From contig NZ_CAMTIG010000008.1 of NCBI RefSeq assembly GCF_947072515.1, positions 1 to 64,000 of the forward strand: a stretch of 64,000 bases of DNA, read 5' to 3'. Position 1 is the first letter of the stretch. Every line of letters begins with the position of its first letter. The DNA comes from an uncultured Clostridium sp. (GTDB taxonomy: Bacteria; Bacillota; Clostridia; Clostridiales; Clostridiaceae). Under the pieces are notes generated by a model. That model searched no databases. It was not told the DNA's origin and saw only the letters and a program-made list of their open reading frames with translations. Below, one piece after another: positions 9,976-64,000 of this stretch. The position numbers and the translations under genes were made by a program.

Positions 9976-9983
9976 TTAATATA

Positions 9984-11370: not shown

Positions 11371-11376
11371 GATAAT

Positions 11377-11415: not shown

Positions 11416-11416
11416 T

Positions 11417-11908: not shown

Positions 11909-13089
<1,181 letters not shown>

Positions 13090-13172
13090 AAGGTAACACC
13101 CCTTTCTAAATATTCAAATCTAATTTTATCATAAATTTATAATAAAAACTTTGAAATTTATAATAAAAAGAA

Positions 13173-13214
13173 CCCTATCAAAACAAGAATTGTTCTTACT
13201 TTGATAGAGTTTTT
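13173..13214. terminator. Terminator between thyA and the membrane protein gene
   Basis: CTATCAAA at about 13174 pairs with TTTGATAG ending at 13207, with an inner AAGAA/TTCTT stem. T-runs on either strand make it usable for the leftward gene at 13230-13841. Confidence 0.7.
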
Positions 13215-13229
13215 TACAATAAAGAAATT

Positions 13230-13841
13230 TTAGTTAAATAATATATGTAAAATCATTACAATTATGAAAAGTATCCCTAAATACTTGTGATTTTTTAAGC
13301 CTTTATTAAAGATTCTAAGTAATCCAGACAGAATAAGAATTATTAATATAATTCCATCTAAAGCTCCAAGAATATAGCCTAATTTCCATTTGAATCCTAA
13401 ATGAAGGAATATGTATACATGAATAGAAATAACGGCGAATCCAATCATTGCTAAAGGTATATGGAACTTTTGTATGAGTCTGCTAAGAAAAATTAAAAGT
13501 TGTTTTATTGGTTTAGTTAAAAATGACATTATATTATGTTTACTAGAATCTTTTAATTTTAGCTTAGTTTTATCTAATTTACCCCAAATAAAATCAAATG
13601 TTTTAGGATTTAAGTATCTAATAATGAGTCTTAAAGCCCAAAGTGCGACAGCAATACCAAAACATACTGCACAGGCAATGGCAATATCTTCACTTAAATT
13701 TTTTAACCCATGATAGCTAAAGTTAAATAAAAAATTACTACTCATTGAAAATAAAATAAAAATTACAGATATTATTGCTAAAATAATTCCTAAAAAAAAG
13801 ATTTTAAGATTTCTTTTTTGGAATTTTGATAGTTTTTTCAA
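13230..13841 (-). CDS. Polytopic membrane protein with four-His heme-type pattern
   Basis: About 203 residues with five or six predicted membrane helices. I do not recognise a named family. Two helices near the C-terminus each carry two histidines exactly 14 residues apart: FHIPLAMIGFAVISIHV and NHKYLGILFIIVMILHI. This spacing places one His pair on each side of the bilayer and is the pattern of bis-heme ferric-reductase and cytochrome b transmembrane domains. A heme-b membrane protein is therefore inferred, not shown. No flavin or NAD domain is attached. The TTG at 13841 is preferred because AAGGAG lies 7 nt upstream; a GTG at 13850 overlaps that site. Confidence 0.55.
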   Translation of the reverse strand: MKKLSKFQKRNLKIFFLGIILAIISVIFILFSMSSNFLFNFSYHGLKNLSEDIAIACAVCFGIAVALWALRLIIRYLNPKTFDFIWGKLDKTKLKLKDSSKHNIMSFLTKPIKQLLIFLSRLIQKFHIPLAMIGFAVISIHVYIFLHLGFKWKLGYILGALDGIILIILILSGLLRIFNKGLKNHKYLGILFIIVMILHILFN

Positions 13842-14090
13842 ATCAATCACTCCTTAAGCATATTAAATGAAATTATACAACAATAAATGAAAGAAAAAAA
13901 TATAAAAAGCTTAAATTTTAAAAAAAGAAGAACATTTTAACAGTTTACCATTTAAAAGGAAAAATATTCAAGAGAATTTAAAGATTAAAATAAAACTATA
14001 AGGATATGATTTTAAATAAAGCTAGAACATAAATTCTTTTATAGTATAATGTAAGTAGATAATTTTAAGGAAAAGGGTGGTGCAGATACC

Positions 14091-50735: not shown

Positions 50736-52688
50736 ATGATGAAGAAAAAAGTGGTTACTATGGGTTCATTGCTTGTTGCACTTGGAATAGTATATGGAGA
50801 TATAGGAACATCGCCATTATACGTAATGCAAGCAATCCTGTCCACAAATAATAATTACTCTTCAAGAGGGCTGATTTTAGGTGGTGTATCATTAGTATTC
50901 TGGACTTTAACACTACAGACTACAATAAAGTACATAATATTCACCTTAAGGGCTGACAATAATGGAGAAGGAGGAATCTTTGCACTATATACGTTAGTAA
51001 AAAAATATGCTAAATGGCTGATAGTACCTGCAATAATAGGTGGTGGAGCATTGCTAGCAGATGGTATACTAACACCTCCCGTTTCAGTAAGTTCAGCAAT
51101 TGAGGGATTAAATGTTATTTTCCCAATAAAAGAGGAAGTAACAATTATAATTGTAATAGTAATAATTTTAGGACTATTTTTAGCTCAAAGGTTTGGAACA
51201 GAAAAGATTGGTCGAATATTTGGACCAATAATGCTTATTTGGTTCTTAATGATAGGAATTTTAGGATTTTCTCAAATCACTAAAAATCCAGGAATATTAC
51301 AAGCAGTAAATCCTTATTATGCATTGAAATTAATCATGCATGGAAATAGTGCTGTATATATATTAGGAGCAGTCTTCCTTTGTACAACAGGAGCAGAAGC
51401 GCTATATTCAGATTTAGGGCACTGTGGAAGGTCAAATATTTATTACACATGGGTATTAGTTAAAATATGCTTATTATTAAGTTATTTTGGGCAGGGGGCA
51501 TACCTTCTAGCAAGAACAGGACAACAGTTTACAGAGAGTCCATTCTTCTTAGTAATGCCAAAGTGGTTTATAATTCCTGGAGTTATAATAGCAACACTTG
51601 CAACAATAATTGCCAGTCAAGCACTAATATCAGGATCATTTACACTTGTTTCAGAAGCAATTAAACTTAATATTTTCCCAAGGTTACATATAAGATATCC
51701 AAATGGCGAAAAAGGTCAGTTATATATAGGAGCTGTAAACACAGCTTTATGTATAGGTTGTATTGGGATAGTATTAATATTTAAAAAATCAGAAAATATG
51801 GAAGCAGCATATGGATTAGCAATTACAATAACAATGCTTATGACAACAATATTGTTATCACAATATATAAGATACAAGAAAAAGAAAAAAGTGTTATGGG
51901 TATTCATATTAGTTATATTTGGAACTATAGAAACAAGCTTCTTATATGCAAATAGTTTCAAAATTTTAAGTGGTGGATATATTACATTACTAATAACTGC
52001 AGGATTAATTTTCTTAATGTATATTTGGTCATACAGTTCTCAAATCAAAAAGAAATACAGAAGATTTGTTAACCTTTTTGATTACAAAGAAAAGTTTAAA
52101 CTTATACAGGCAGATAAAGAATTGCCACTTTATGCAAATAACATTGTTTATTTAACAAAATCAAAAAGATGGAACGAAGTAGAAAATAAAATAGTTTATT
52201 CAATATTTAATAAAGATCCTAAGAAAGCAGAAAATTATTGGTTTATAAATATCACAGTAACAGATGAACCATATACAAAAGAATATAAATTCAATACAAT
52301 ACAAGAAAATAGAGTATTTAGTATAGAATTTAAATTAGGATTTAGGTTATCACAAGGAGTAAATACACTTTTAGCTGAAGTTGTACAACAATTAATGGAA
52401 AGTGGAGAAGTTCAATTTACACCAAAAGAATATATGATAACATCAGGAAATAGAAAAGCTATAGGAAACTTTAAATTTATATTACTTGAAGAAGTACTTC
52501 ATAGTGAAAGCACATTTTCAGGATGGGATAAATTTATTCTTTCAGCAAAACTACTTATTAAGAAACTTACAGTTTCACCACAAAAATGGTATGGAATGGA
52601 CACGAGCGTAGTTGAAGTAGAAAAAGTTCCAATACTATTTGGTCAAAATCGTTCAGCAGGAACATTAAAAAGAATATATGATAAATAA
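50736..52688 (+). CDS. kup: Low-affinity potassium uptake protein Kup
   Basis: 650-residue KUP/HAK/KT K+ transporter with 12 membrane helices. It contains LGIVYGDIGTSPLYVMQAIL, a diagnostic start, then NGEGGIFALYTL and LADGILTPPVSVSSAIEGL. The C-terminal 200 residues form the cytoplasmic domain. It probably works as an H+-coupled importer. ATG after AAAGGAGC. A bidirectional terminator (GAAAGCATCTC/GAGATGCTTTC) at about 52693-52725 separates it from the phage-tail locus and marks its left edge. Confidence 0.95.
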   Translation: MMKKKVVTMGSLLVALGIVYGDIGTSPLYVMQAILSTNNNYSSRGLILGGVSLVFWTLTLQTTIKYIIFTLRADNNGEGGIFALYTLVKKYAKWLIVPAIIGGGALLADGILTPPVSVSSAIEGLNVIFPIKEEVTIIIVIVIILGLFLAQRFGTEKIGRIFGPIMLIWFLMIGILGFSQITKNPGILQAVNPYYALKLIMHGNSAVYILGAVFLCTTGAEALYSDLGHCGRSNIYYTWVLVKICLLLSYFGQGAYLLARTGQQFTESPFFLVMPKWFIIPGVIIATLATIIASQALISGSFTLVSEAIKLNIFPRLHIRYPNGEKGQLYIGAVNTALCIGCIGIVLIFKKSENMEAAYGLAITITMLMTTILLSQYIRYKKKKKVLWVFILVIFGTIETSFLYANSFKILSGGYITLLITAGLIFLMYIWSYSSQIKKKYRRFVNLFDYKEKFKLIQADKELPLYANNIVYLTKSKRWNEVENKIVYSIFNKDPKKAENYWFINITVTDEPYTKEYKFNTIQENRVFSIEFKLGFRLSQGVNTLLAEVVQQLMESGEVQFTPKEYMITSGNRKAIGNFKFILLEEVLHSESTFSGWDKFILSAKLLIKKLTVSPQKWYGMDTSVVEVEKVPILFGQNRSAGTLKRIYDK

Positions 52689-52692: not shown

Positions 52693-52725
52693 AAAGCATC
52701 TCGGCTTAGAGATGCTTTCTTTTTT
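52693..52725. terminator. Bidirectional terminator at the left edge of the tail locus
   Basis: GAAAGCATCTC and GAGATGCTTTC form a perfect stem with GGCTTA loop and T-runs. It ends kup and the leftward immA-like gene. Confidence 0.9.
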
Positions 52726-53185
52726 ATGAAAAAGATTTACCTATCTGTAAATTAGGAAGAAAATTTATAATATAGCAATCTACTGTATAGCATGAACCAT
52801 ACTTGTTAACATAATGATGAAGTGCCTCATCTAGATAAGCTTCAGTAATATTAAAATATTCAGCAAGCTCGTATTTGAATTTACAACCAGCATTAAAAGC
52901 ATTAATTAGGCCAGATAAGCCAATAAGCTTATCATACCCCCAAGCTCGAGCTAGAAGTTCTTGTTTCCTATTGGAGATATTAAATCTTTGCTCTTTAATA
53001 TCTCCTACAGTTAAAATATAGTGGCCTAATTCTTCAGCTAAAACACAATTTTTTTCACGCTCAGTAAGATTGTGCTTTATAGCGATTCTATTCCCATAGC
53101 AAAGGCCTTTTTTAGTTATTAAATCAACTTCCTTTACAATTGCACCTAGAGTTTCAGATTCTATTAATAATTCCTCATATTGCAA
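52724..53185 (-). CDS. ImmA/IrrE-type metallopeptidase
   Basis: About 153 residues. AEELGHYILTVGDI is the zinc-protease region of the ImmA/IrrE (DUF955) family; here the first zinc-motif residue is Glu (EELGH) rather than the usual His, a variant I recall from other clostridial phage proteins. ImmA proteins cleave the cognate repressor to induce the element. It follows the repressor gene by 6-18 nt, the expected pairing. A TTG start (MQYEELLIES) 8 nt after AAAGGTGG gives the family-typical beginning; GTG codons 9-12 nt earlier are possible. Confidence 0.82.
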   Translation of the reverse strand: MQYEELLIESETLGAIVKEVDLITKKGLCYGNRIAIKHNLTEREKNCVLAEELGHYILTVGDIKEQRFNISNRKQELLARAWGYDKLIGLSGLINAFNAGCKFKYELAEYFNITEAYLDEALHHYVNKYGSCYTVDCYIINFLPNLQIGKSFS

Positions 53186-53203
53186 TGAAAACACCACCTT
53201 TAG

Positions 53204-53767
53204 TTAACTATTCCAAAAATCATAATCTTCCATAATAGTTCTATCATGGTTGTAATCATCTTCCGAAAAATCGCCATCTAGTTCACAAGCTGCATTAGGA
53301 ATTAAGTGTTGTTCATCACTAAATTCTTCAGTAAATGGCTTTTTGTTTAAAGTAGTAATTAATTTTGAATTAGAACTATAATTATATTCTGTAGTAACAG
53401 TTGTTGTGTCATGTGAATATTTTTCACTATCAATTAAATCAGAAGTATAAGAAATAACTTTACTTTGCCCCAATGAATTTAATTTTCTAAAATTATTCAA
53501 ATATTCTTGTTCTTCTAAAGAAAGCTCAATAGAAGATGGAGTAAATCCTAAAAGCCATATGGGATCAATATTTAAAGCTTTTGCAATTATACCTAGTTTA
53601 TCAATAGGAATATTTTTTATAGAACCAGTTTCATATCTTTGCAGTGTAGATTTACTCATATTAGTTTTTTCAGCTAAGTCTTGATAAGACAAATTTAATT
53701 CTAAACGTCTAGATTTAACTCGTTCCATAATAGCAGTTAAATTTTGAGAATTAGTTACATTATCCAT
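53204..53767 (-). CDS. XRE family repressor of the tail locus
   Basis: 187 residues. Helix-turn-helix YQDLAEKTNMSKSTLQRYET at about 25-45, then a region ending DPIWLLGF, common in phage repressors, and a long variable C-terminal part without a recognised LexA-type peptidase. That fits induction by the ImmA-like protease rather than self-cleavage. ATG 53767 is chosen because GAGGTGAG lies just upstream; extending further upstream adds an unlikely hydrophobic tail. Divergent from the Cro-like gene. Confidence 0.87.
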   Translation of the reverse strand: MDNVTNSQNLTAIMERVKSRRLELNLSYQDLAEKTNMSKSTLQRYETGSIKNIPIDKLGIIAKALNIDPIWLLGFTPSSIELSLEEQEYLNNFRKLNSLGQSKVISYTSDLIDSEKYSHDTTTVTTEYNYSSNSKLITTLNKKPFTEEFSDEQHLIPNAACELDGDFSEDDYNHDRTIMEDYDFWNS

Positions 53768-53803
53768 TACCTCACCTCTAATATAATTATAAAACAAAAT
53801 TTC

Positions 53804-53904
53804 AAAAATGCAACGAAAAAGTTTTAAACCTAGTAAAAAGTTGCAAATTTGGGTTGACATAGAGAAAAATGGATTGTATTATTTAATTATCCTAAATATG
53901 CAAC
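53804..53904. promoter_or_regulatory. Switch region: promoter with three operator half-sites
   Basis: AAAAATGCAAC (53804-53814), its reverse GTTGCAAATTT (53840-53850) and AAATATGCAAC (53894-53904) lie between the repressor and cro genes. TTGACA (53854-53859) and TATTAT (53877-53882) at 17 bp form a near-ideal rightward promoter. A fourth site lies at 54118-54128. Confidence 0.8.
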
Positions 53905-53915
53905 AGAGGTGAAAT

Positions 53916-54113
53916 ATGAAATATAATGAACTAAAGAAATTAATGAAAGATAAAAATTACTCTCAGAAAAAATTAGCCGATAGACTGAAGATTTCTAAGC
54001 AAACATTAAATTTGAAAATGAATGGAAAAGCCCCATTCCTAATCTTGGAAGCAGTAGAAATAATAAATATATTGAAAATTGAGAATCCAAAGGAAATTTT
54101 TTTTGAAGAATAG
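53916..54113 (+). CDS. Cro-like XRE regulator
   Basis: 65 residues, essentially one helix-turn-helix domain: YSQKKLADRLKISKQTLNLKMNG at about 19-40 (recognition part KISKQTLNLKMNG). Divergent from the repressor and under the strong promoter at 53854. Size and position are those of phage Cro or early regulators. ATG after AGAGGTG. A further operator copy follows its stop codon. Confidence 0.85.
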   Translation: MKYNELKKLMKDKNYSQKKLADRLKISKQTLNLKMNGKAPFLILEAVEIINILKIENPKEIFFEE

Positions 54114-54117
54114 TCCC

Positions 54118-54128
54118 AAATATGCAAC
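54118..54128. promoter_or_regulatory. Fourth operator copy, AAATATGCAAC
   Basis: Exact copy of the site at 53894-53904, between cro and the late regulator gene. It may let the same repressor or Cro control the late regulator. Confidence 0.65.
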
Positions 54129-54217
54129 GGGAAAGGAGAAGTATATAAGTGGAACATAAAAAAGTTGTAAAGTTAGAATATGAGATTAATTTATCTGATA
54201 AAAACAAAGGAGAAAAA

Positions 54218-54661
54218 ATGAATAAAGAAAGAGTACAAGCAGCGATAAGAGCATTAAATAAGTTAAATATATTAAAGGAAAAAATTGAAGTTTTAGATGA
54301 TGAAATTGAAATAATAAAAACTGAGTATAATAGTATTAAAAGTATTAATTATAGTGGAATAAGTGCTAAGCAAAATAAAGTTAGTGTAATAGAAAAAATT
54401 GTAATAAATAAAGAAGAGCAATTATTAGAATTATATACTAAAAAGGCAGAACTAGAGCTTGAAGCAAAAGATATAGAGAGAAAATTAAAAAAGCTTAATG
54501 AAAAATATAGAATTGTAATTGAAGGAAGATATGGTGAACATAAAAAAACATGGAGACAACTTGCGAATGAGTTGATGTATAGTGAAAGTTATTGCAGAAA
54601 TAAACTAATTTATTCAGCACTATTAAATTTTGAAGAAATGCTAGAAACATCAAATATTTAA
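54218..54661 (+). CDS. Phage late transcription regulator, sigma-70 region 4-like (ArpU/RinA-like)
   Basis: 147 residues. A coiled-coil N-terminal part (about 1-100) is followed by a sigma region 4-like segment YRIVIEGRYGEHKKTWRQLA and ELMYSESYCRNKLIYSALL. Small proteins of this design (ArpU, RinA, PBSX Xpf) turn on late genes of Gram-positive phages. It ends just before a terminator and the duplicated late promoter region, so it is the likely activator. ATG 54218 follows AAAGGAG; a GTG at 54149, also with AAAGGAG, would add 23 residues. Exact family is uncertain. Confidence 0.72.
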   Translation: MNKERVQAAIRALNKLNILKEKIEVLDDEIEIIKTEYNSIKSINYSGISAKQNKVSVIEKIVINKEEQLLELYTKKAELELEAKDIERKLKKLNEKYRIVIEGRYGEHKKTWRQLANELMYSESYCRNKLIYSALLNFEEMLETSNI

Positions 54662-54672
54662 ATTAAAGAAAG

Positions 54673-54720
54673 CTATAACTAGGTTTATTATAATTAGAAA
54701 TTTAGTTATAGTTTTTTTTT
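54673..54720 (+). terminator. Terminator after the late regulator
   Basis: CTATAACTA (54673-54681) pairs with TAGTTATAG (54703-54711), followed by nine or more T. It separates the control genes from the tail operon. Confidence 0.85.
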
Positions 54721-54798
54721 GTATAGAAATAAAATAGATAAATTATAAAATAATATTAAAAAGGACAAAAGGGGTATAAAAGAATTACTTTAGTGAGC

Positions 54799-54944
54799 AA
54801 ATGGAGTGAACACAAGATAAAAAATACATGTTATTCTAATATCATCATAAAAGGTTAAACACAGAGCAAGAGAACTTGAAAACATTCAAGTTCTTTTTTA
54901 TATAACTTTTTATAGAAAATAACAAAATTTTAGGAGGATTTATT
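54799..54944 (+). promoter_or_regulatory. Late promoter region, copy A, with early terminator
   Basis: Copy A of a 150-bp repeat (B at 57801-57953). It has a GTGAACA block, 19 bp, TATTCT (54832-54837), and a 27-bp stretch identical in both copies (54832-54858). About 15 nt later, AGAACTTGA (54871-54879) pairs with TCAAGTTCT (54886-54894) and is followed by T6. A terminator right after the promoter suggests antitermination or attenuation of tail genes. The element does not match a normal sigma-A promoter. Confidence 0.7.
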
Positions 54945-55634
54945 ATGAATCAACAAGTAGAACAAAATAAAATTATAGAAGGGAGATTTGTAGGACTAAA
55001 AGATTTCTTTGTAGCTGAAGTTTTAGAAAATACAATGGATACTTACTCAGCAGATGAGCCAATTATGTTATCAAGAGCTATTAATGCAAAAATTGCACCA
55101 AAGTACAACAGTACAGCAGTATATTCAAACAATACAACAGAATATGCAAGTTCATTATTTGAAAGTGGAACAATAACACTTAGTGCAAATGATTTATCAC
55201 CAGAAATGAAATCAATATTATTTGGACACAAATATAATTCAGAAACAGGACTTTTAGATTTAAGTGTAGATGATGTAAGTAATCCAGTAGCAATTGGATT
55301 TAGAGCAACTAGAAGTAATGGATGTAAACAACAATTAAGATGGTACTATGTATGTGTATTCTCACCATCAACAGAAAGTTTTGCAACATTAAGTACAAAA
55401 GAAACAGTTCAAGACTTCCAACTTACAGGACAATTCGTAGGAAGAGCAAAAGATGGGAAATATGGAGTTGAACTAGATGAAGAGTATATTTCAGCAACAG
55501 CAGATGTAGGGAATTTATTAACTAATTGGTTCTCAGCAGTTATAGATGATAGTAATGTAGAAACTTATATTGGAACAGGAATAGCAAAACCAACTGAAGC
55601 ATTTGAAACATCAAGAGAAGCATTTAGAAGATAG
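54945..55634 (+). CDS. Major tail (tube) protein
   Basis: 229 residues resembling phi13-type major tail proteins: IIEGRFVGLKDFFVAEVLEN at the N-terminus, AEYASSLFESGTITLSAND-like core (here SSLFESGTITLSANDLSPEM), and FVGRAKDGKYGVELDEEYI near 180. Such proteins stack as rings to form the non-contractile tail tube. First gene after late promoter A, preceded by AGGAGGA. In complete prophages connector and tail-terminator genes would come before it; none is here. Confidence 0.83.
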   Translation: MNQQVEQNKIIEGRFVGLKDFFVAEVLENTMDTYSADEPIMLSRAINAKIAPKYNSTAVYSNNTTEYASSLFESGTITLSANDLSPEMKSILFGHKYNSETGLLDLSVDDVSNPVAIGFRATRSNGCKQQLRWYYVCVFSPSTESFATLSTKETVQDFQLTGQFVGRAKDGKYGVELDEEYISATADVGNLLTNWFSAVIDDSNVETYIGTGIAKPTEAFETSREAFRR

Positions 55635-55671
55635 AAATTATTAAAATAAAAAGTTAGATAGGAGAAATATT

Positions 55672-55977
55672 ATGTTAGAATTAGAATTTAATAATACGCG
55701 ATATGAATCAAAAGGAATTACAGGAAGAGTAAAGCTTGAACATGCTAGATTAGTAGATAAATTAGCAAAGAAGAATATAGATAAAATGGAAGGCTCATCA
55801 GCGGACTTCATATTAGAAGAATGTAAATTTATATGCAAGGCATTTAATGATCAATTTACTTTAGATGAATTTTTAGACTATGTTCCAGCAGAAAATATAG
55901 ATATTATATTTTTTAGAATTGGAGATTATATAAATAAAAAAGTAGAGTCTAACATAAGAAATATCATAAAAAACTAG
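55672..55977 (+). CDS. Tail assembly chaperone gpG
   Basis: 101 residues by normal termination. It occupies the lambda gpG position between the major tail protein and tape-measure genes. Helical, with LEFNNTRYESKGITGRVKLE at the N-terminus, and KLAKKNIDKMEGSSADFILE. Its last sense codons read ATA AAA AAC TAG, a canonical -1 slippery heptamer immediately before the stop. It probably coats the tape measure protein during tail assembly and is absent from the final tail. ATG after ATAGGAG. Confidence 0.82.
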   Translation: MLELEFNNTRYESKGITGRVKLEHARLVDKLAKKNIDKMEGSSADFILEECKFICKAFNDQFTLDEFLDYVPAENIDIIFFRIGDYINKKVESNIRNIIKN

Positions 55978-56210
55978 GATTGGAGCCGAAGGAAAGTTCA
56001 GGCTCCATTTTTGATGAATGGGATAAACAAGATATATATCAAAAAAACAAAAAGTCAGTAGAAAAAAAATCTACTGACTTTTATTATTATCTGTTTCATT
56101 ATGCACAACAAAAATGCAATATGGGATTAGAGGAATGTTTAGATATGAATATATATGAGTTTGTAGATTATTTAGAGTTTATAACAAGATTAAACTCTAA
56201 AAATAAATAG
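55672..56210 (+). CDS. Tail assembly chaperone gpGT by -1 frameshift
   Basis: A -1 slip at A AAA AAC (55968-55974) bypasses the TAG at 55975-55977 and continues as LGLEPKESSGSIFDEWDKQD to the stop at 56208-56210, giving about 179 residues. The T part is acidic then aromatic (YYYLFHYAQQKCNMGLEECL), typical of the second domain of these chaperones, and lacks its own ribosome site or ATG. In lambda and most long-tailed phages the G:GT ratio is set this way. The length and reading frame are exactly those needed. Confidence 0.85.
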
Positions 56211-56245
56211 TATGCCAATATTTAGAAAATTAATAAAATGAAAAT

Positions 56246-56298
56246 TAAAAGCCTATAGCTAGATTTAGAAAAATTTAAATCTAGTTATAGGCTTTTTT
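56246..56298. terminator. Bidirectional terminator between gpGT and inverted cassette
   Basis: AAAAGCCTATAGCTAGATTTA pairs with TAAATCTAGTTATAGGCTTTT, shown here by its inner parts TAGCTAGATTTA and TAAATCTAGTTA, with one mismatch and a T-run. It ends the first half of the tail operon and the leftward cassette. Confidence 0.9.
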
Positions 56299-56683
56299 AG
56301 TTAGTGGTAAACGCAACAATCCCCGTTCCGATAAAAGCACAGAAAATAAGAATAATTATTAGGATAACTGTAGTTTTATGTGGTTTAGGAAAAGTTGAAG
56401 AACCGATATTTTCCAAAAATTGTTTATCTTCTAGAATAATCATGTCCTTAGGTATAGCTATATTTTTATTTGTTAAGAAGAATCTATATGATTGTGAAGA
56501 AGGTGATAAACCTAAGAAGTTTTTTTGTGATGTAGTAAAAACTTCACGTTTAGTATCTAAAGAAGTATAAACAACCATTTCTTCGGAAGTTGTAGAATTT
56601 TCTACAAGACCATTTACAAAATAAATATTACCTTTATAATCTTCAATTATTTGTCCTTTAAAATTTTTTAAATCTCGTTCCAT
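56297..56683 (-). CDS. Membrane-anchored single DUF1653-like repeat protein
   Basis: 128 residues. Residues about 6-75 resemble DUF1653-type domains: FKGQIIEDYKGNIYFVNGLV, then EEMVVYTSLDTKREVF. A C-terminal helix VILIIILIFCAFIGTGIVAF anchors it. No signal peptide, so the soluble part is probably in the cytoplasm (tail-anchored). It is paralogous to the larger gene just upstream on the same strand and lies opposite to all tail genes around it. I do not know its function; a lysogenic-conversion, immunity or regulatory role is inferred only from location. Confidence 0.7.
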   Translation of the reverse strand: MERDLKNFKGQIIEDYKGNIYFVNGLVENSTTSEEMVVYTSLDTKREVFTTSQKNFLGLSPSSQSYRFFLTNKNIAIPKDMIILEDKQFLENIGSSTFPKPHKTTVILIIILIFCAFIGTGIVAFTTN

Positions 56684-56694
56684 AAGAAACCTCC

Positions 56695-57612
56695 TTAACT
56701 TTTAAGTATTAAAAATACAAAAAGAAAAACATAAGAAATTATTAAAATTGAACCCCAAAACATATTATATTGAAAACGAATAGAACGTTCTTTAATAAAC
56801 CAATTATGAAAAGAGGGTTTACTAGGAACTTTATCAGGTTCAACTAGGTTATAAATATATTTTTCTTTATATTTTGAACTACGTTTACTTTCTAGTTCAG
56901 ATAAAAAATATGAGCGTGGAAGGAGTTTAAGATCATATTTCCCAAAAAGACCTTTCATTAAAACAAAATCAGTGCCTGTAATAGGGTCATGTGGCTGATC
57001 AATTACAACATAATATAACTTATTAAAACGTCTAATAACATGACCTTTAAGAGGAATTAAATCCTTTTGTTTTGGAAATAGATGAAGTGCTGTATTAGAA
57101 TCAACAACTTCATAAATGTGTGGTTGTATTGCATCAGGATGTTTCTCTAAATTAACAGTTCCTAAAAATATTTTTTTAGGAGCAACAAAGGGCAATAAAT
57201 TTATTTCTCCATACAAAACAAAGGGTTCATTAGAAAATCCGTCATAAACTAAATCATGAACAAAGCAAAAAGTACCTTTATAACCTTGAACAAATTTTTT
57301 ATAAAAATCAACAGAGTCCCTAATTATAGACTTAGATTGTTTAGGTTTAATAAAAGGTGGCACAGAATCAGCTTTATCTACAGTTTGAAATAGAAATTTT
57401 TGTGTTGAATTTGGGAAAAATTTTTTATCATTAATATCTAAAAATATATTTTTAGGTAAAATGAATAGATTATTTTCATTATAAAAATCTCTATATAAAA
57501 CCATCTTTTTTTGTGAGTTAGCAACGTCAGAAGTAATACGAAGAACTAGGTAAAAATATCCATCAGGATCTCTAACAATTTTTCCTTTTAAATCTTCAAA
57601 ATTTTGTGGCAT
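56695..57612 (-). CDS. Membrane-anchored protein with three DUF1653-like repeats
   Basis: 305 residues. Three related segments: about 5-80 (FEDLKGKIVRDPDGYFYLVL), 105-172 (FVQGYKGTFCFVHDLV) and 187-265 (LKGHVIRRFNKLYYVVI). Each has the pattern KG-x(5-7)-G/F-x-Y/F-V, then a VLY/VLM core and a K/R-x-FL-containing end. The C-terminal helix (FWGSILIISYVFLFVFLIL) anchors it. Likely co-transcribed with the smaller paralogue 11 nt downstream. A candidate TATAAT lies about 25 nt upstream. The pair interrupts the tail operon in the opposite direction, like a phage moron. Confidence 0.72.
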   Translation of the reverse strand: MPQNFEDLKGKIVRDPDGYFYLVLRITSDVANSQKKMVLYRDFYNENNLFILPKNIFLDINDKKFFPNSTQKFLFQTVDKADSVPPFIKPKQSKSIIRDSVDFYKKFVQGYKGTFCFVHDLVYDGFSNEPFVLYGEINLLPFVAPKKIFLGTVNLEKHPDAIQPHIYEVVDSNTALHLFPKQKDLIPLKGHVIRRFNKLYYVVIDQPHDPITGTDFVLMKGLFGKYDLKLLPRSYFLSELESKRSSKYKEKYIYNLVEPDKVPSKPSFHNWFIKERSIRFQYNMFWGSILIISYVFLFVFLILKS

Positions 57613-57800
57613 AAATTCAACTCCATTCAGTATAGAATATTATAGTAAGCATATAAAGTATAAAAATAGAAAAATATTCTTATAAATCATAAACTTTCCT
57701 TTGAGTATATAGTGGATATATGTATTGTGGGTTAAGAGAGTGTAAATAAAAATATAAAATTAAAATGCCGTAGAATGCAAAAAGAGATGAGTTAGTAGTT
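57613..57800 (-). promoter_or_regulatory. Promoter side of the inverted cassette
   Basis: On the minus strand, TATAAT occurs in the sequence CTTACTATAATATTC at about 57645, upstream of the 305-residue protein gene, with GGAG just before its ATG. The rest is AT-rich with no gene. Confidence 0.5.
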
Positions 57801-57953
57801 AAATAGAGTAAACAAAGAATGAAAAATTCATGGTATTCTAATATCATCATAAAAGGTTAAGCAATATAGAAAGAGAGAATTTGAAGAAATCAAGTTCTTT
57901 TTTTATACCTTTTATAGAAATAATGAAAGTTTTAGGAGGAATTAATATGAAGA
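57801..57953 (+). promoter_or_regulatory. Late promoter region, copy B, with early terminator
   Basis: Second copy of the late region: GTAAACA, 19 bp, TATTCT (57834-57839), the same 27-bp block (57834-57860), and AGAATTTGA (57876-57884) with TCAAGTTCT (57890-57898) plus a T-run. The stem is kept through a G.U pair although the sequence changed, a sign of selection on structure. The copied part includes the ribosome site and ATG, now opening a four-codon frame (MKKL, 57947-57961). Confidence 0.7.
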
Positions 57954-58024
57954 AATTGTAGATAGAAAAAGATGATAGCAATGAAAAAAGTTTATAGAAA
58001 ATTAAATGGAAGGAGGTAATTTAA
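57954..58024 (+). other. Short remnant between copy B and tape measure gene
   Basis: About 70 bp with several stop codons in all frames. It follows the vestigial ATG and ends in AGGAGGT, the tape measure ribosome site. It may be scar sequence from the cassette insertion or duplication. Confidence 0.5.
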
Positions 58025-59845
58025 ATGGATATGAATGAAGAGGTAGATGAGATTCTTACAGAGGAAACTGAAGAACTAAATGAAGAAGAAACTATAATGA
58101 CAGCGTATGATAATACATTGCAAAATTTATATAATCAATATCAAAGGATAAATAAAATAGCTACACAAACAATTGCTGAATTTAATACAATAGAAGCAAT
58201 TTTTACGAAGAGTATAGCATTATTGCAAGAAAATATTAGTGAATATAGTAAATTTGATTTAGGTTTAAAAAAGACTACTACAGAAGAAAATACTTTAAAT
58301 AAAGAATTAATACAAAGAGAGAAGTTATTAAAAGTTTTAAATACATTGACTAAGAACTTATATTCAAATGAAACAAAGTACAATGAAAGTCTTCTTAAAA
58401 GAGAAAATATATTAAAAGAATTAAATAATCTTTTAAAGACTATGAATGTAGAAGAAATGAATTTAAATAAAGAATTTAAAGAAAGTGAAGTTATATTAAA
58501 TAAATTAAATGAACTTTCAAAAGTTTTAAGTAATAATTTTAAAGCAGTTGCTCAAAGTGTAGCTAAAATTTCAACTATATTTCCTATACTTAGTAAAGAA
58601 ACAATGGGGTTAGGTTCTGATATACAGAAGTTAAATAAATTATTAGAAAATCAACAAAAAAATATAGAAACTGTTGGTGAAGCTTTTTCGGAAATGAATG
58701 ATAAAATAAATTCAAATAAAATAAATGATTATTCAAAGGCAGTAAAAAAAGCTAATAAAAATTCAAGTGAATTATTTGAAAATATTCAAAAAAATGCATC
58801 TAAAACATCAGAGTCTATGAAGGCAAATATTGAAAGATGGATAAATGATATTGTAACAGCAATAAAGGCAATAACTGGAGTTATAACGATTATTAAAACA
58901 CTTAAAGATGTAATGAACTTTTTCACTAAGAATGATGTAGATGATAATACTGAACTTAAAAATTCAATAAAAGAATTAACACAAGCTATACAAGAATCAA
59001 ATCAGAAAACAAGAGATGAAATTGAAAAGACGCAAGAAGCTAAGAATGAAGAAACTGAAGATGTTGATTCAGATAATCAAAAACAAGAACATTCAGGAAA
59101 TAATTTGGAAAATGAATTTGAAAATGATAATGCGGAAGAGCAAAATGAGGAAAGCACAACTGGTGGAGTTATAAATTCTGTAGACAATAATATAGAACAG
59201 GATTCAGAAACAGTAGGAGAAGACATAAGCACAGCAGCTAATGAGGGTGAGGAATCAGAAGAAACACTTGAGACAGTTACTGAAACAAGTGCAACAGGTA
59301 TAGAAGTAGCAGATGAAGCTGTTGAAGTTTCAACAGATGCCATGGAAGGGCCTTTTGGACTTGTAAGTTTGGCAATACAAGAAATGATAGAACATTTTGC
59401 AGCTTTAGAAAACTTGGTCAATGATGCTAAAGGAGCATTAGAAGATGCAGGGAAAGAGATAGAAAATGTATTTCATGACTTTATAGCATTACCAGAAAAG
59501 CATGGAGCTAGTGAAAAAAATATACATCATATGATGGTATCAGAATTTGCAGTTACACCATTAGATCATAAGGTTACAAGTGTACCAATAGTTGCAAATG
59601 AAGGCTTCATGTCAGATTTTTCTTTTAATATGCCAGAATTAAATAACTTTGATTTTGAAGGTGTTACTGATGCATTAGTTGAAAAAATGATGACTGCTAT
59701 AGATAAAGTATCTGAAAGACCTATAGTTACAAAAGTTCAAATGAATAATAAGACTATTGTTGAAGCTACTCATAAACAATTTAACAATCTAAATGGACAA
59801 GAAGCAGAATTAGAAGCAAGAATGAGAGGTGTATTAGTTGGATAA
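58025..59845 (+). CDS. Tape measure protein
   Basis: 606 residues, mostly alpha-helical coiled coil in the first half (LKKTTTEENTLNKELIQREK), one hydrophobic segment at about 275-300 (DIVTAIKAITGVITIIKTL), an acidic Asn/Glu/Asp-rich stretch at about 330-430, and a C-terminal part typical of clostridial phage tape measures. The length of this protein fixes tail length at about 0.15 nm per residue, so a tail near 90 nm is predicted. It follows late promoter B and overlaps the next gene by 8 bp. Identification rests on position, size and architecture. Confidence 0.78.
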   Translation: MDMNEEVDEILTEETEELNEEETIMTAYDNTLQNLYNQYQRINKIATQTIAEFNTIEAIFTKSIALLQENISEYSKFDLGLKKTTTEENTLNKELIQREKLLKVLNTLTKNLYSNETKYNESLLKRENILKELNNLLKTMNVEEMNLNKEFKESEVILNKLNELSKVLSNNFKAVAQSVAKISTIFPILSKETMGLGSDIQKLNKLLENQQKNIETVGEAFSEMNDKINSNKINDYSKAVKKANKNSSELFENIQKNASKTSESMKANIERWINDIVTAIKAITGVITIIKTLKDVMNFFTKNDVDDNTELKNSIKELTQAIQESNQKTRDEIEKTQEAKNEETEDVDSDNQKQEHSGNNLENEFENDNAEEQNEESTTGGVINSVDNNIEQDSETVGEDISTAANEGEESEETLETVTETSATGIEVADEAVEVSTDAMEGPFGLVSLAIQEMIEHFAALENLVNDAKGALEDAGKEIENVFHDFIALPEKHGASEKNIHHMMVSEFAVTPLDHKVTSVPIVANEGFMSDFSFNMPELNNFDFEGVTDALVEKMMTAIDKVSERPIVTKVQMNNKTIVEATHKQFNNLNGQEAELEARMRGVLVG

Positions 59846-60521
59846 TTATATAATTTTTAATAATCAAAATTCAATGACAGAAGGATTTAGAATTGAATCA
59901 TATAATTTAGGAGCACCTACACCTAAGGTTGTTGTGGAGAATGTACCGTATATGAATGGTGGGTATAATTTTTCCATGCTAAATGGAAAGCAATATTATA
60001 ATAGTAGAACTATACAAATTACATTTAGTTTTGGACGCTTTGTTAAGTTCAGTAGAGAGATGAATATCAAGAGTATTTATCAAAAATATTTTGAGTTTAA
60101 AAACTTCTTATTATCTAGTGGAAAGAGAGAACTTGATATATCAGGTCTATTAAATTTTGAGGGGAAGTTAAAGGCTGTATGTACTAATGTTTCTGGATTA
60201 GCACAAGGAAGTGAAGGTGGTAGCTTTGTTGCTACATTTACATGTGATCCACTTATTTATATCGGAGAATATGGAGAACAACCATGGAATACATTTAGCT
60301 TCGTTGATGGAATATCAGAGTTTAGTGAGTTAAATATAAATGGAAGCATGACAATTCCAATTTATAATCCAGGACAACCAGCAAGTTGTACAATAACTAC
60401 AACTGGAACAGTAGAGTTAGAAAATTTACAAAATAATTTTATGATTCAAACAGGAATAACAAATTTAGAAGTTACAGGAATGGGAACTATAACAATAAAC
60501 TTTAAGAAAGAGGTGATTTAA
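59838..60521 (+). CDS. Distal tail protein (Dit)
   Basis: 227 residues of the siphovirus tail-family type: IIFNNQNSMTEGFRIESYNL at the N-terminus, QITFSFGRFVKFSREMNIKS, a KNFLLSSGKRELDISG stretch and EGKLKAVCTNV. The C-terminal galectin-like domain carries PLIYIGEYG. Dit forms the hub joining the tube to the tip and receptor-binding parts. Its start overlaps the tape measure gene and its stop touches the next ATG. Confidence 0.83.
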   Translation: MDNYIIFNNQNSMTEGFRIESYNLGAPTPKVVVENVPYMNGGYNFSMLNGKQYYNSRTIQITFSFGRFVKFSREMNIKSIYQKYFEFKNFLLSSGKRELDISGLLNFEGKLKAVCTNVSGLAQGSEGGSFVATFTCDPLIYIGEYGEQPWNTFSFVDGISEFSELNINGSMTIPIYNPGQPASCTITTTGTVELENLQNNFMIQTGITNLEVTGMGTITINFKKEVI

Positions 60522-61723
60522 TGGCTAATATACAAAATCAAATAGATGAAATTTCAACTGCCTTTTATGGTAGTCAAGTAAGAGGAGCCATTGTAGAAGG
60601 ACTTGAATCAATTAATGATGAGGTTAATGAATTATATACAAACTTAAATGATCTAATGGTTAAAGCAAATACAGCATTAACTAATGCGAATAATTTAAAA
60701 AATGAAGTAGGAGAAGCAAGTGAGGGATTTCAACAAGCACAGGCTGAATATATAAATTTAAAAAATCAAATAGAAGTGATACTTCAAAAGTTGGAAAAAG
60801 AAAAAACAGCTTTAATGTTAAATCATACAATAATGAACAATAGTTTTTTAAATGATTTTGATAAAGCAGTAGAACCAGGATATTACTCATATGCAGCAAC
60901 AGAAGGAACTAAAAATATACCTCCAAATTGTGGATATGGAGTTTTAGAAGTAATTTTAGGGGTAACAGCTAATGATCAAACTGAATATAATCCAAATGAT
61001 AATAATTGGATTTGGCAAATAGTTTATGATACATCAGGAATAATAGCATATAGAAATGCTGAAAATCAAAGTGGATGGCAACAATGGAATACACTTGCAA
61101 CAACTTCCAATGAAACATTTGAAAATTGTACGCTTAACACACCAACAATATCTAATGCTAGCTTAGATGGAAGTGTAACGCTTATTGGAGGAACAGGAAT
61201 ACAAGGTGGAGCAATTACGAATACTACATTATCTGGAACTATAACGAATATTGCTCAAATTAATGGTGGAACTTATGATAATCCAAGATTTATTGGGGCA
61301 AGTATAGAAAATCAAGGAACTTTTAATGGGGGAACATATTCAAATCCTACTATAGAAGCATTTGGTAATAATATTATTCAATATAATAAATTGCCTTACT
61401 CAGTAATTATTTCACCAGGAATAACAGCTACTGGAGCAGTTGAATTCTTTTTAATTAATGCTCCACAGTTAGGTGGAGAGAATATTACTGGAAGTATTGG
61501 AATAGTAACAGTAACGACAACTTTAGATGAATGGTATACTTGGCCTAAAGATAATAATATAGTGGTTGATATAACTGGTATTCCGAATGCTACGGCAAGA
61601 ACAATAAGTCCATTTAATAATCTTAATATAGGTATAGATGGAGGACAACTTTATATGTCGGGAGTTGGAACAGCATTGAATAATGGACAAACATATACAA
61701 ATCAAGCGTTATTATGGCAATAG
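60521..61723 (+). CDS. Baseplate/receptor-binding protein with pyocin-knob-like domain
   Basis: 400 residues. The N-terminus IDEISTAFYGSQVRGAIVEG resembles baseplate upper proteins, followed by a coiled coil (about 35-95), a pyocin-knob-like domain (about 110-185: AVEPGYYSYAATEGTKNIPP, GWQQWNTLATT), then Gly/Thr/Asn-rich repeats suggesting a beta-helix, and a C-terminal globular end. Likely binds a cell-surface polymer and sets target range. It sits between Dit and the tail-tip gene, whereas such proteins usually follow the tip gene. Stop and start overlap Dit by one base. Confidence 0.78.
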   Translation: MANIQNQIDEISTAFYGSQVRGAIVEGLESINDEVNELYTNLNDLMVKANTALTNANNLKNEVGEASEGFQQAQAEYINLKNQIEVILQKLEKEKTALMLNHTIMNNSFLNDFDKAVEPGYYSYAATEGTKNIPPNCGYGVLEVILGVTANDQTEYNPNDNNWIWQIVYDTSGIIAYRNAENQSGWQQWNTLATTSNETFENCTLNTPTISNASLDGSVTLIGGTGIQGGAITNTTLSGTITNIAQINGGTYDNPRFIGASIENQGTFNGGTYSNPTIEAFGNNIIQYNKLPYSVIISPGITATGAVEFFLINAPQLGGENITGSIGIVTVTTTLDEWYTWPKDNNIVVDITGIPNATARTISPFNNLNIGIDGGQLYMSGVGTALNNGQTYTNQALLWQ

Positions 61724-61736
61724 AGAGGAGAAAAGA

Positions 61737-62201
61737 ATGGATAATATGAGAAAAGAAGAATATGGAGATTTTAATTTATTATTGATTTTTAATAAAAAAT
61801 TAGAAGTGATAGAGTTAGTTAACTTTTCTAATAGATGTTTAAAAGATAATATTTTTAATAAAGATTTATTTTATGTGGAATTAGAAGAAGCATTGTTCTT
61901 TGAGATTAAGAAATTACTTTTAACTAATACATTAAGACTAACAAAAGATCCTATTAAAGAAAAAATAACAATAAAGGATATAGAGAAAACACCACTACCA
62001 CCAAAACCACCAACACCAGAAGAAGCCATGAATAATGGACTTTTAGCTGTAACTATGGGGGTTGGAGAACTTAATATGAAAATTCATGCTATTTCAGATG
62101 GTATGTTAAATCAAGTTGAAGAAAGATCAGAATTAAAGAAACAAATAGAAGCACTAAATGGTGCAGTATTAATGTTAACAATGAAATTAGGAGGAAAATA
62201 A
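61737..62201 (+). CDS. Tail-associated protein of unknown function
   Basis: 154 residues. A globular N-terminal part (DFNLLLIFNKKLEVIELVNF) leads to a proline linker (TPLPPKPPTPEE) and a C-terminal helical, Met-rich segment. Likely a structural or regulatory accessory of the tail tip. ATG 61737 follows GAGAGGAG; an upstream start inside the previous gene is unlikely. No family recognised. Confidence 0.65.
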   Translation: MDNMRKEEYGDFNLLLIFNKKLEVIELVNFSNRCLKDNIFNKDLFYVELEEALFFEIKKLLLTNTLRLTKDPIKEKITIKDIEKTPLPPKPPTPEEAMNNGLLAVTMGVGELNMKIHAISDGMLNQVEERSELKKQIEALNGAVLMLTMKLGGK

Positions 62202-62203
62202 TT

Positions 62204-62383
62204 ATGGAAAGTATAGTATTAGAAATGTATCAAGCAGGGAATTGGAGTTTAGCACAGGTAAGGGAGCTAGTTCCAACAGTAATAACAGCAACACAGTTTC
62301 AACAAATAACAGGACAATCTTATATAGAAAAAACTCCAATGCATTCATCTACTCAACCAGTAAATAACATGTTCGTAGATTAA
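62204..62383 (+). CDS. XkdX-like small phage protein
   Basis: 59 residues. LEMYQAGNWSLAQVRELV followed by VITATQFQQITGQSY matches the XkdX pattern (a Y-x-x-G-x-W/Y start and I-T-x-x-x-[FY]-x-x-I-T-G end). XkdX proteins are encoded near tail fibre genes of PBSX and many prophages; their role is unknown. ATG after AGGAGG; the last base is shared with the next start (TAATG). Confidence 0.7.
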   Translation: MESIVLEMYQAGNWSLAQVRELVPTVITATQFQQITGQSYIEKTPMHSSTQPVNNMFVD

Positions 62384-64000
62384 TGCTTTTTTTAATTAAT
62401 GTAAAGGATCGTGGCACTATTGATAATTACAATAGTGCTACTATTGATTATAAAGAAAATTCAGCTTCTATTTTAACTTTTACAATATTGAAAAATAGTT
62501 CTTTTTTTAATGATTTAAATAAATATATAGATAAAATAGAAGTTATAAATTTTAATAATGAAATAATATTTACTGGAAGAGTATTAGATATTCAAAAATC
62601 TATGAATGAGCAAGGAGAGTTTATAAATACAGTTACTTGTGAATCAGTTCTTAATTATTTAGTTGATGTAACAGTTCCAGTTTGGAATTTATATGGAGGT
62701 ACAGTTCCTAAAAAAGCTCCTGTAGGAGCAGAAGGAAATATCACCGTAAAGGATTTACTAAATAAGGTACTAAATGAATATAATTCAGGAGCTATATTTC
62801 CGATAAAGTTAGGAAATGTAACTGTGGATGGAAATGTAACTTTAAAAACTAATAGACAAACTTGTTTAGAAGTTATTATGAATAGTCTTGTTGAAGTGTT
62901 TGGTGGGATTGTTCAAATTAGGAATGAAAATGGAGTGTACTATTTAGATTATTTAGAAGCACCACCTATATCAGAAGAAATTATAGCTTTTGATATAGGA
63001 GTAAATATACAAAGTATCACAATTCAAGATAAATTAAATAATCTATGTACTAGATTAATAGCCGTAGGAAAAACACAGTCTATGCAAGCAATTGCAATAA
63101 ATGAGGATTTAAGAAAGATTTACGGCGTTATAGACAAAGTTGTACAATTTGATAATGTAACTAATATAGATGAACTACAAGAAAAAGCGGATTTGGAAAT
63201 AAAAAGTATAAATAATTATGTATTAAATGCAAATATAGGGGCGTTAGATTTAAGTTATATAAATAATGACTTTAATAGTTTAGAGTTATATAAAAGTGTT
63301 CAGGTTACTTGTGAGGAACTTGGATATAATAAGCTTCATTATGTGGTTTCTATAACATTAAATTTATTGCAGCCTTTTTTAAGTACTTTTAGTTTAAACA
63401 CAAATAAAGTAACACAAATAGATCAAATAACTCAGTTAATACAGCAAAATAATGTAACAAATCGTGAGATGACAGAAATTCATGGGACTTTGGAAGAAAA
63501 AACATCAAATGTAGAATTTACAGCTTATCAAGAGCAAATAGAAAAAGAACTTAGTAATACTGTGGCTAACGAAAATATATTAGAGCTTGAAGAGGCTATT
63601 CAAAGAGAATTAAATGGTAAAGTTTCAAATACTGAGTTTATAGAATATAAAGAAGAAATAGCAACAGATTTATCTAATAAAACGTCAAATTTAAAATTTG
63701 GATTATATCAAGAAGAAGTAAATAAAGAATTAGATGCTAAAGTTTCAATTACGGATGCTAGAGGCTATAAAGAAAATATAGCATCACAAATAGAAGGAAA
63801 AGTATCAAACTCAGAATTTGGATTATATCAAGAAAAAATTCAAGGAGAGTTAAATGAGAGAGTAACTTCTGTAGAACTTGAAGAAGTGAGGGAAGAAGCT
63901 TTAAGTAATGGAAAAAACAAATCTATAGTTTGTGGCGGAGTTATAACAAATTTGAAAAGTGGAGATACAGAAACTATAACATTACCTGATATTTTTAAAA
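62383..64000 (+). CDS. Tail-tip protein with endopeptidase-type N-domain (Tal), partial
   Basis: At least 539 residues, cut by the window end. The N-terminal 340 residues resemble the prophage tail endopeptidase family (INVKDRGTIDNYNSATIDYK, IVQIRNENGVYYLDYLEAPP, LNNLCTRLIAVGK). From residue 373 come seven 20-residue repeats (e.g. KVSNTEFIEYKEEIATDLSN), then the start of a new domain (NKSIVCGGVITNLKSGDTET). Tal proteins close the tail tip and often carry cell-wall hydrolase or binding parts. The start overlaps the XkdX-like stop. Function of the missing C-terminus is unknown. Confidence 0.78.
   Translation, partial: MLFLINVKDRGTIDNYNSATIDYKENSASILTFTILKNSSFFNDLNKYIDKIEVINFNNEIIFTGRVLDIQKSMNEQGEFINTVTCESVLNYLVDVTVPVWNLYGGTVPKKAPVGAEGNITVKDLLNKVLNEYNSGAIFPIKLGNVTVDGNVTLKTNRQTCLEVIMNSLVEVFGGIVQIRNENGVYYLDYLEAPPISEEIIAFDIGVNIQSITIQDKLNNLCTRLIAVGKTQSMQAIAINEDLRKIYGVIDKVVQFDNVTNIDELQEKADLEIKSINNYVLNANIGALDLSYINNDFNSLELYKSVQVTCEELGYNKLHYVVSITLNLLQPFLSTFSLNTNKVTQIDQITQLIQQNNVTNREMTEIHGTLEEKTSNVEFTAYQEQIEKELSNTVANENILELEEAIQRELNGKVSNTEFIEYKEEIATDLSNKTSNLKFGLYQEEVNKELDAKVSITDARGYKENIASQIEGKVSNSEFGLYQEKIQGELNERVTSVELEEVREEALSNGKNKSIVCGGVITNLKSGDTETITLPDIFK
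63499..63912 (+). repeat. Seven tandem 20-residue repeats in the tail-tip protein
   Basis: Residues 373-510 are units of 20 residues, 60 bp each, beginning K-[VT]-S-N-x-E-F and ending E-L. The first six fill 63499-63858 exactly and the seventh is degenerate. Fixed length and no gaps suggest a rod with repeating geometry. Confidence 0.85.

Follow-up and report, generated by a model that had tools for sequence, protein, structure and literature searches.

A locus of about 13 kb between the genes kup and serC of an uncultured Clostridium species is probably an F-type tailocin, that is, a domesticated siphovirus tail with a plan like that of the Listeria monocin, as judged here from its genes. 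The window that we analyzed is a stretch of 64,000 nucleotides, positions 1–64000 of contig C8 (NZ_CAMTIG010000008.1; 100,998 bases), from a draft genome of 3.9 Mb (130 contigs, 99.97% complete). The locus spans 52724–65838 on C8 as one unit, with kup on its left and serC on its right, and its right end lies beyond the window. The first-pass annotation of the window had described a headless siphovirus-type tail locus; gene order, protein families and intact frames confirm this description, and the flank beyond the window agrees with it.

Noncontractile tail genes behind a lysogeny-type switch

Two minus-strand genes, for an IrrE/M78 protein and a CI-like protein, are followed on the plus strand by genes for a small helix-turn-helix (HTH) protein, an ArpU-type regulator, tube protein, chaperone, tape measure, Dit, a fibre-like protein, XkdX, tip, XhlA, a holin-like protein and a GH25 lysin, and the reading frames of all genes of the locus are unbroken. 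The noncontractile set of tube, chaperone, tape measure, Dit and tip is thus present, with the tape measure assigned by place and a weak C-terminal match, and none of the scanned proteins matched a sheath family. Family scans also gave the locus switch genes and a lysis cassette of its own, and they support the earlier statement that lysogeny-type control genes (M78, CI-like, HTH and ArpU) run directly into the tail genes, beginning with the tube protein.

The M78 gene (52724..53197, minus strand) encodes an IrrE/ImmA-type metallopeptidase with an AEELGH motif (PF06114, 41.3 bits; phrog_87, 2.1e-32), a putative anti-repressor. Next to it lies the gene for a CI-like HTH repressor (53204..53767, minus strand; HTH_3, 3.3e-14), 187 amino acids (aa) long from an internal ATG picked by eye and ending in an acidic tail. 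The divergent intergenic region between the CI and HTH genes holds a promoter-like TTGACA-17-TATTAT on the plus strand (53854..53882; 11 of 12 positions match), with promoter-like sites overall being at chance in the promoter scan (70 observed, 86 in shuffles). On the plus strand, the small Cro-like HTH regulator (53916..54113; HTH_26, phrog_3) precedes the ArpU-type late transcriptional regulator (54149..54661; phrog_36, 6.3e-21; weak sigma region 4 matches).

The major tail tube protein (54945..55634, plus strand) belongs to the phi13 family (TIGR01603, 97.4 bits against a cut-off of 35.2; phrog_88, 1.4e-31) and is followed by the tail assembly chaperone (55672..55977, plus strand; PF23857, Phage_TAC_19). 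A kept frameshift site had been reported for the locus, and we found one in this gene: the 3′ end of the chaperone reads ATA AAA AAC TAG, so that the heptamer A AAA AAC (55968-55974, plus strand), a classic slippery heptamer, stands directly 5′ of the stop codon, and the −1 frame continues without a stop for 76 further codons. In the 33 host open reading frames (ORFs) of the window, this heptamer occurs in frame once in 13,297 codons. The −1 extension (76-aa ORF, 55980..56210, plus strand) has homologues 3′ of the chaperone in the prophage loci L029, L031 and L034, where both chaperone parts have relatives in the same order.

The tail module is then split by a pair of minus-strand genes (56297-57612) and resumes on the plus strand with the 606-aa tape measure protein (58025..59845), assigned by its place before Dit and by C-terminal similarity to the pre-Dit ORFs of L074 and L076. 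Dit (59838..60521; phrog_33, 5.5e-11; 34% identical to that of L043) is followed by a baseplate/fibre-like protein (60521..61723), whose N-terminus is 54% identical over 37 aa and 41% over 87 aa to co-located proteins of L074/L075 and whose C-terminus is unmatched. A small protein of unassigned function comes next (61737..62201; start set by eye, the listed ORF opening at 61683 within the fibre-like gene; a phrog match at E 0.047 only), then the XkdX-like small tail protein (62204..62383; PF09693, 34.4 bits) and the 607-aa tail tip protein (62383..64206, running past the window end at 64000; phrog_3558, 7.2e-57), which is 39–40% identical to the tip of a Clostridium thermobutyricum prophage. 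A holin and a lysin were sought to the right of the window, and the cassette found there (64216–65838) consists of XhlA (64216-64446; PF10779, 52.7 bits), a holin-like protein (64459-64848; phrog_9492, function blank, 1e-22; phrog_608, holin, 0.0024; no Pfam or NCBIfam family) and the GH25 lysin (64864-65838; PF01183, 128 bits; PF01471, PG_binding, 59 bits).

Absence of head, packaging and integration genes

To the right of the locus, ORFs were read by eye as far as about contig position 81,000 without any head, terminase or integrase gene coming to light, and a tblastn search with 18 head-protein queries (terminase, portal, protease and capsid from six related prophage loci; E 1e-3) gave no match in C8:52001-92000. 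Integrase, excision and replication genes were likewise not recognized in the locus by family scans or ORF reading, with kup and serC flanking it directly. These results are in line with the earlier statement that no terminase, portal, capsid, connector, integrase or sheath is seen.

Terminase matches were found elsewhere in the genome, on contigs C58, C41, C26, C64, C90 (phrog_2) and C23 (PF03354), indicating that other prophages or remnants exist in it. On C41 (L180, G000:C41:1-20000) the terminase match contains 15 internal stops and an M78 gene lies on the same contig, which marks a decayed prophage. Terminases on other contigs of a 130-contig draft might suggest that the head genes of the tail locus were lost or misplaced in assembly. 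We regard such an artefact as extremely improbable, since the whole locus and both host flanks lie inside one contig and the flanks match those of a sister species.

The locus is a lineage-specific insertion

To the left of the locus lies kup (50736-52688; PF02705). After the lysin come serC (66076; Aminotran_5 family, named serC by reading), serA and, by reading, ordinary host genes. Comparison of the same site in related genomes, which the first-pass annotation had proposed, showed that in the nearest of 68 species searched by SerC, C. thermobutyricum (G064; SerC 89% identical), kup (86%) is adjacent to serC and the site is empty. Stretches upstream of serC in 20 relatives gave no match to any locus protein at 1e-6, a search that other kinds of tail would escape; kup stands beside serC in one of these 20, G064. 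The element is a lineage-specific insertion and is not ancient at the kup–serC site. No long flanking repeat stood out at the locus ends in a search for direct repeats or att sites. GC content was considered as a signal of age and set aside as uninformative, as that of the locus (27.5%) matches its surroundings (28.8% on the left, 27.4% on the right).

A duplicated control region and an embedded DUF1653 pair

About 210 nt before the tube gene (P1, 54739..54949, plus strand) recur before the tape measure gene (P2, 57743..57951, plus strand). The two copies are 79% identical over an 84-nt stretch and 78% over a 54-nt stretch, share 27 consecutive identical nucleotides (54832-54858 in P1, 57834-57860 in P2) and give a local alignment score of 155, compared with a maximum of 41 in 200 shuffles. 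A 24-nt piece of this core, allowing up to three mismatches, matches only P1 and P2 in the whole genome. In each copy the core is followed by a leader hairpin with a T tract (z −5.9 in P1, at about 54868–54897; z −5.0 in P2) and then by a ribosome-binding site, which leads in P1 to the tube gene start and is accompanied in P2 by a vestigial 4-codon ORF. A conserved core and hairpin amid 78–79% identity are as expected if both blocks must switch on together, and by this unusual layout the locus is predicted to be two late units with the same leader. In pyocins, PrtN acts via P boxes, to which this putative two-unit switch may be likened. The core was also sought as an element of the genus: two three-mismatch matches in ordinary chromosomal context (G035 and G062) were found in 67 other genomes and one (G022) with the reversed control, so that these matches were dismissed as chance.

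The ArpU gene (T1, 54667..54720, plus strand; z −6.6), the chaperone (T2, 56247..56295, between convergent genes; z −9.1) and the lysin (T3, 65858-65904; z −8.1) are each followed by a terminator-like hairpin, and the three resemble one another. In two other headless loci described below (G145 and G146), a hairpin of this kind was likewise seen by eye between the chaperone and tape measure genes, so that a break at that place is not unique to the window locus.

Between T2 and P2 lie the two genes that split the tail module, both on the minus strand. The first (56297..56683; PF07866, 31.9 bits) encodes a 128-aa protein with a DUF1653 domain and, by eye, a C-terminal membrane-spanning segment; the second (56695..57612; PF07866, 30.3 bits) encodes a 305-aa protein with three DUF1653-like modules by eye (one by Pfam) and, again by eye, a C-terminal membrane segment. 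Neither matched tail families. A DUF1653-like stretch on contig C27 of the same genome is 41% identical to the first module of the 305-aa protein (residues 1–82). The siphoprophages L030, L033 and L035 have extra genes between tube protein and chaperone, near the place of the DUF1653 genes in the window.

The nearest readable tails belong to complete siphoprophages

The tube protein has matches in 22 of 68 genomes of the genus, including the window (23–34% identity outside it), and the tip in 19 of 206 genomes of the family, again including the window. We opened 20 of the 22 tube places and 20 of the 24 tip places outside the window. The tube places left out were G027:C49, opened later (L194), and that of G025, which has a listed terminase; among the tip places left out, that of G064 is L043 of the tube set, and G134:C1:3573213, G148:C1:359293 and G027:C40 lie outside the sample. 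Each of the 20 tube-protein loci has one or more head genes, and 19 have a terminase. For the tip loci, tblastn found a head protein in 13 of 20; by reading, L079 and L086 have head genes, L092 has neck-like genes at the start of the stretch, L075 has neck-like genes up to the contig end, L076 has an apparent capsid end at the contig start, and L073 and L074 are short contigs beginning just before Dit. The parents of the window tail, as these comparisons suggest, were ordinary siphophages. Scans with a tip alignment returned five genome loci and one viral locus, all from genomes already examined or from the same prophage.

A census with TIGR01603 (E ≤ 1e-8) in 200 Clostridiaceae genomes found 118 places in 85 genomes. 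A PF03354 terminase is listed on the same strand 5.8–10.7 kb upstream of 100 of these tube genes (search over 20 kb upstream); the window gene has none. Among the other 18, eight have other head proteins by tblastn (G205:C63, G150:C51, G044:C12, G148:C1, G105:C1, G058:C196, G027:C49 and G041:C31) and six are cut by contig ends (G142, G205:C114, G114, G039 and two in G199), which leaves the window, G004 and the headless loci G145:C21 and G146:C16. The locus of G004 (L184, G004:C1:4016500-4031000) has integrase, neck and tail genes by reading and no recognized terminase, portal or capsid; it is possibly an intermediate of head loss.

Headless tail loci recur in the family

Headless tail loci are present in three other genomes of the family (G145, G146 and G044) and probably in a fourth, G153, where the locus is cut by the contig end. 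Those of G145 (L196, G145:C21:56000-75999) and G146 (L197, G146:C16:1-20000) come from two species of one other genus, and a repeated head-protein tblastn found nothing in either. Their genes, with families scanned in G145, encode a repressor, two ArpU-type regulators, tube, chaperone, tape measure (635 aa in G145, 550 aa in G146), Dit, two small proteins, a tip-fibre protein (1324 and 1589 aa), a BhlA holin and a GH25 lysin. The left flank, of genes that we take to be lysine-fermentation genes, is common to both, and the right flanks differ.

Nei–Gojobori ratios of nonsynonymous to synonymous substitution rates (dN/dS) between these two species were 0.04–0.37 for 10 locus genes, a set outside which the tape measure and fibre stand: repressor 0.078, regulators 0.150 and 0.097, tube 0.085, chaperone 0.166, Dit 0.104, small proteins 0.103 and 0.369, holin 0.039 and lysin 0.205. 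Two adjoining host genes gave 0.123 and 0.131. Because dS is high and uneven along the locus (0.43 to 1.99, above 1 in five of the 10 genes), the ratios are approximate, and recombination may have occurred. The fibre, which carries a Peptidase_S74 domain in G145, is about 77% identical over the first 600 alignment columns and 0–60% identical, with large gaps, beyond them. This locus looks to be under purifying selection with a diverged fibre end, a pattern suggestive of kept machinery with a changing adhesin.

A search with Dit gave 27 places in 21 of 224 genomes, and we opened 10 more of them, the two of G201 and those of G054, G039:C136 and C182 lying outside this sample. Head proteins have matches in L222, L223 and L226, and reading shows genes resembling those for portal and capsid in L220 and L221; L228 and L229 are truncated near Dit, and L227 and L225 are headless. 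The tenth, L224 (G158:C1:1522500-1542499), has tape measure, Dit and tip without a recognized tube protein and adjoins transposase-like genes; it is a decayed tail remnant. L227 (G044:C36:9000-28999) holds CI, M78, a divergent ArpU gene, a tail completion protein, a tube protein of a different family (phrog_3099, assigned by place), a 624-aa tape measure, Dit, tip, a BhlA holin and an amidase, with host genes on both sides by reading. In L225 (G153:C14:100000-114552, at 6374-13954) a sigma-like gene, whose best NCBIfam match is far below the cut-off, and a BhlA holin precede ArpU, and the contig ends after Dit. Neither locus matched the 18 head proteins by tblastn. The reading of the window locus as a tailocin gains support from this recurrence of similarly built headless loci within the family, one of which is kept in two species under purifying selection.

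Tape measures of headless loci, assigned by place and with the broken L224 (613 aa) dropped, are 550, 606, 624, 635 and 720 aa long, compared with 645–1332 aa in 18 opened prophage loci (L028, L029, L030, L032, L033, L035, L036, L043, L075, L076, L077, L079, L086, L092, L220, L221, L222 and L226); a shorter tape measure is a suggestive signature of headlessness, with overlapping ranges. Shared ancestry of the headless loci found no support in a tube-protein tree, mostly unresolved, which does not place the window together with G145/G146. The M78 protein was rejected as a tailocin marker: that of the window is 55% identical over 145 aa to that of L227, but the nearest intact phages reach 48–50%.

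Tailocin or reduced prophage

The same gene set could belong to a defective prophage of recent origin: a siphophage from which deletions removed the integrase, early and head genes, and whose remaining genes now drift but still have open frames as the losses are young. Partial deletion does occur in the family, as in G004, and the nearest readable tail relatives of the window locus are full siphoprophages. Several results weigh against a tailocin, those on the site, on orthologues and on a tail terminator also favouring a reduced prophage. The locus is absent from its site in the 20 relatives, and may thus be young and not yet tested by time; with one genome per species, no orthologue or second copy was found. 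No close relatives were found either, the nearest tube protein being at most 35% and the nearest tip 40% identical, and pattern scans with the tip or the tube protein by itself returned none. The window locus has no recognized gene for tail termination or completion, whereas G044:C36 has a completion gene (phrog_3266) and G153:C14 a homologue of it, and the tape measure has no PHROG or family match. The duplicated control region was not found in G145, G044 or G153, where scores were as in shuffles, so that the loci share no such hallmark. LexA-type boxes follow the motif GAAC-N4-GTTC, and none occurs in the 20-kb stretch.

The missing terminator gene is not by itself a sign of decay, because G145 and G146 likewise have no terminator-sized ORF between late regulator and tube gene. 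Against simple decay, a reduced prophage would need at least three separate losses (the integrase side, the early genes, and everything from terminase to tail terminator), counted from the usual phage map, and would have to have left no remnant gene and no broken frame while keeping switch, late regulator, tail and lysis genes intact. Three matching terminators, a duplicated control region with a conserved core and the parallel G145/G146 locus under purifying selection also speak against drift. The tailocin reading is further backed by the clean way in which the element sits between kup and serC when compared with the nearest species. We therefore consider a defective prophage unlikely and the tailocin probable.

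Proposed induction and release

As a tailocin, the locus might work as follows. In growing cells the CI-like repressor would keep the late regulator off; upon DNA damage or other stress, the IrrE/ImmA-type protease would inactivate the repressor, perhaps by a cut near its acidic tail. The ArpU-type regulator would then be made and would act at P1, giving tube protein and chaperones, and at P2, giving tape measure, Dit, fibre, tip and lysis genes. A flexible headless tail of about 90 nm would assemble (606 aa × 1.5 Å, tape measure length times 1.5 Å being the rule for tail length), holin and GH25 lysin would burst the producer cell, and the released tails would bind and kill related cells, probably via membrane depolarisation. 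Induction, action of the regulator at P1 and P2, particle assembly, release, killing and immunity are all inferred.

In streptococcal phages, according to the cited excerpt, the gene for the small terminase is preceded by an ArpU-like gene, and genes of this type are regarded as late regulators (PMC5601072). In the window, the ArpU-type gene directly precedes the tube gene with nothing between, so that a late switch that evolved for head, tail and lysis genes would control only the latter two. For the Listeria monocin, the CI-like repressor is described as being cleaved through an M78/DUF955 protease, to a greater extent with mitomycin C, and the conserved region holding the cut as lying downstream of the HTH domain; its protease motif is EELMH, compared with AEELGH in the window (PMC6872733, as excerpted). 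The monocin cleavage-region motif was not found by eye in the window repressor. The acidic tail of that repressor resembles those of the M78-partnered repressors of L227, phiCD27, Jekyll and DO134P1: the CI-like repressors of the window and L227 (13841-14521) differ in their bodies and have 16 of 31 C-terminal residues in common, making the tail possibly a protease recognition tail. By analogy, a protease-relieved switch is suggested for the window locus.

The DUF1653 membrane proteins, encoded opposite to the late genes, may be produced while the locus is repressed, and one role that they could have is self-protection. Two membrane genes without a tail-family match, embedded between tail blocks of a locus that has lysis genes, would also suit a domesticated tail that serves some other end, such as lysing the producer altruistically, delivering a protein to neighbouring cells or trapping phages or receptors, while kin killing is secondary or absent. 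We find such a function quite improbable: no cargo-like gene is recognized between tail and lysis genes, neither DUF1653 protein has a PADLOC match, and the headless siphovirus tails described in the cited excerpts are bacteriocins (PMC10811719, PMC7076858).

Relation to known tailocins

The first-pass annotation had likened the logic of the locus to that of monocins, and its module plan does match the one described for the Listeria monocin in the cited excerpt (PMC6872733). The monocin of Listeria monocytogenes (ftb cluster), an F-type tailocin, is compact (10.7 kb in L. innocua, 17–18 genes) and is not excised; in common with the window locus it has a CI-like repressor and an M78/DUF955 anti-repressor divergent from the early genes, as well as tube, tape measure, receptor-binding and holin–lysin genes, with no capsid and no early-lytic module, as far as the excerpts describe it (PMC6872733, PMC7076858). 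Features noted in the window locus, in a comparison by plan only, are ArpU directly before the tube gene, the tail module split by the DUF1653 pair and the two copies of the control region. The monocin has been expressed in Bacillus subtilis (PMC7076858). Killing by the monocin has been demonstrated, whereas the window locus is known from genes.

F-pyocins of Pseudomonas aeruginosa and rhizoviticin of Allorhizobium are also noncontractile headless tails that act as bacteriocins (PMC10811719); unlike the window locus, they have Gram-negative producers, and rhizoviticin retains genes of the early phage region. In the excerpt consulted, F-pyocin and monocin are named, besides rhizoviticin, as exceptions to R-type tailocins (PMC10811719). 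The phage-tail bacteriocins described for clostridia, diffocins and R-type tailocins (clostocins, C. beijerinckii), are contractile, and prophages of solvent-producing clostridia are said to retain the full structural gene set, whereas no sheath or capsid is recognized in the window (PMC10538166, PMC11329794, in the parts cited). The cited part of the survey of solvent-producing clostridia reports R-type tailocins and no prophage classifiable as a siphovirus (PMC10538166). Similar in tail order are HK97/phi13-type siphoprophages such as that of C. thermobutyricum DSM 4928 (L043/L143), which has the same tube-protein family and the same Dit–fibre–XkdX–tip order (XkdX in L043 by reading), with tip 39–40% and Dit 34% identical, but carries terminase, portal, protease, capsid and connector genes directly upstream of the tube protein.

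Among the titles and abstract openings listed in literature searches, none concerned an F-type tailocin in Clostridium, and a clostridial one, if true, would be a second Gram-positive case and would provide narrow-range killers for anaerobes. We put forward, tentatively and as a doubtful proposition taken as a whole, that Clostridiaceae carry a recurrent class of F-type tailocins from at least three independent siphovirus tail lineages (the window; G145/G146; G044 with G153), that the late regulator of the window fires two units via the duplicated region, and that the DUF1653 proteins are an immunity device. Several independent cases in one family, if real, would make rules of domestication testable, namely which genes go, which stay and how late expression is rewired.

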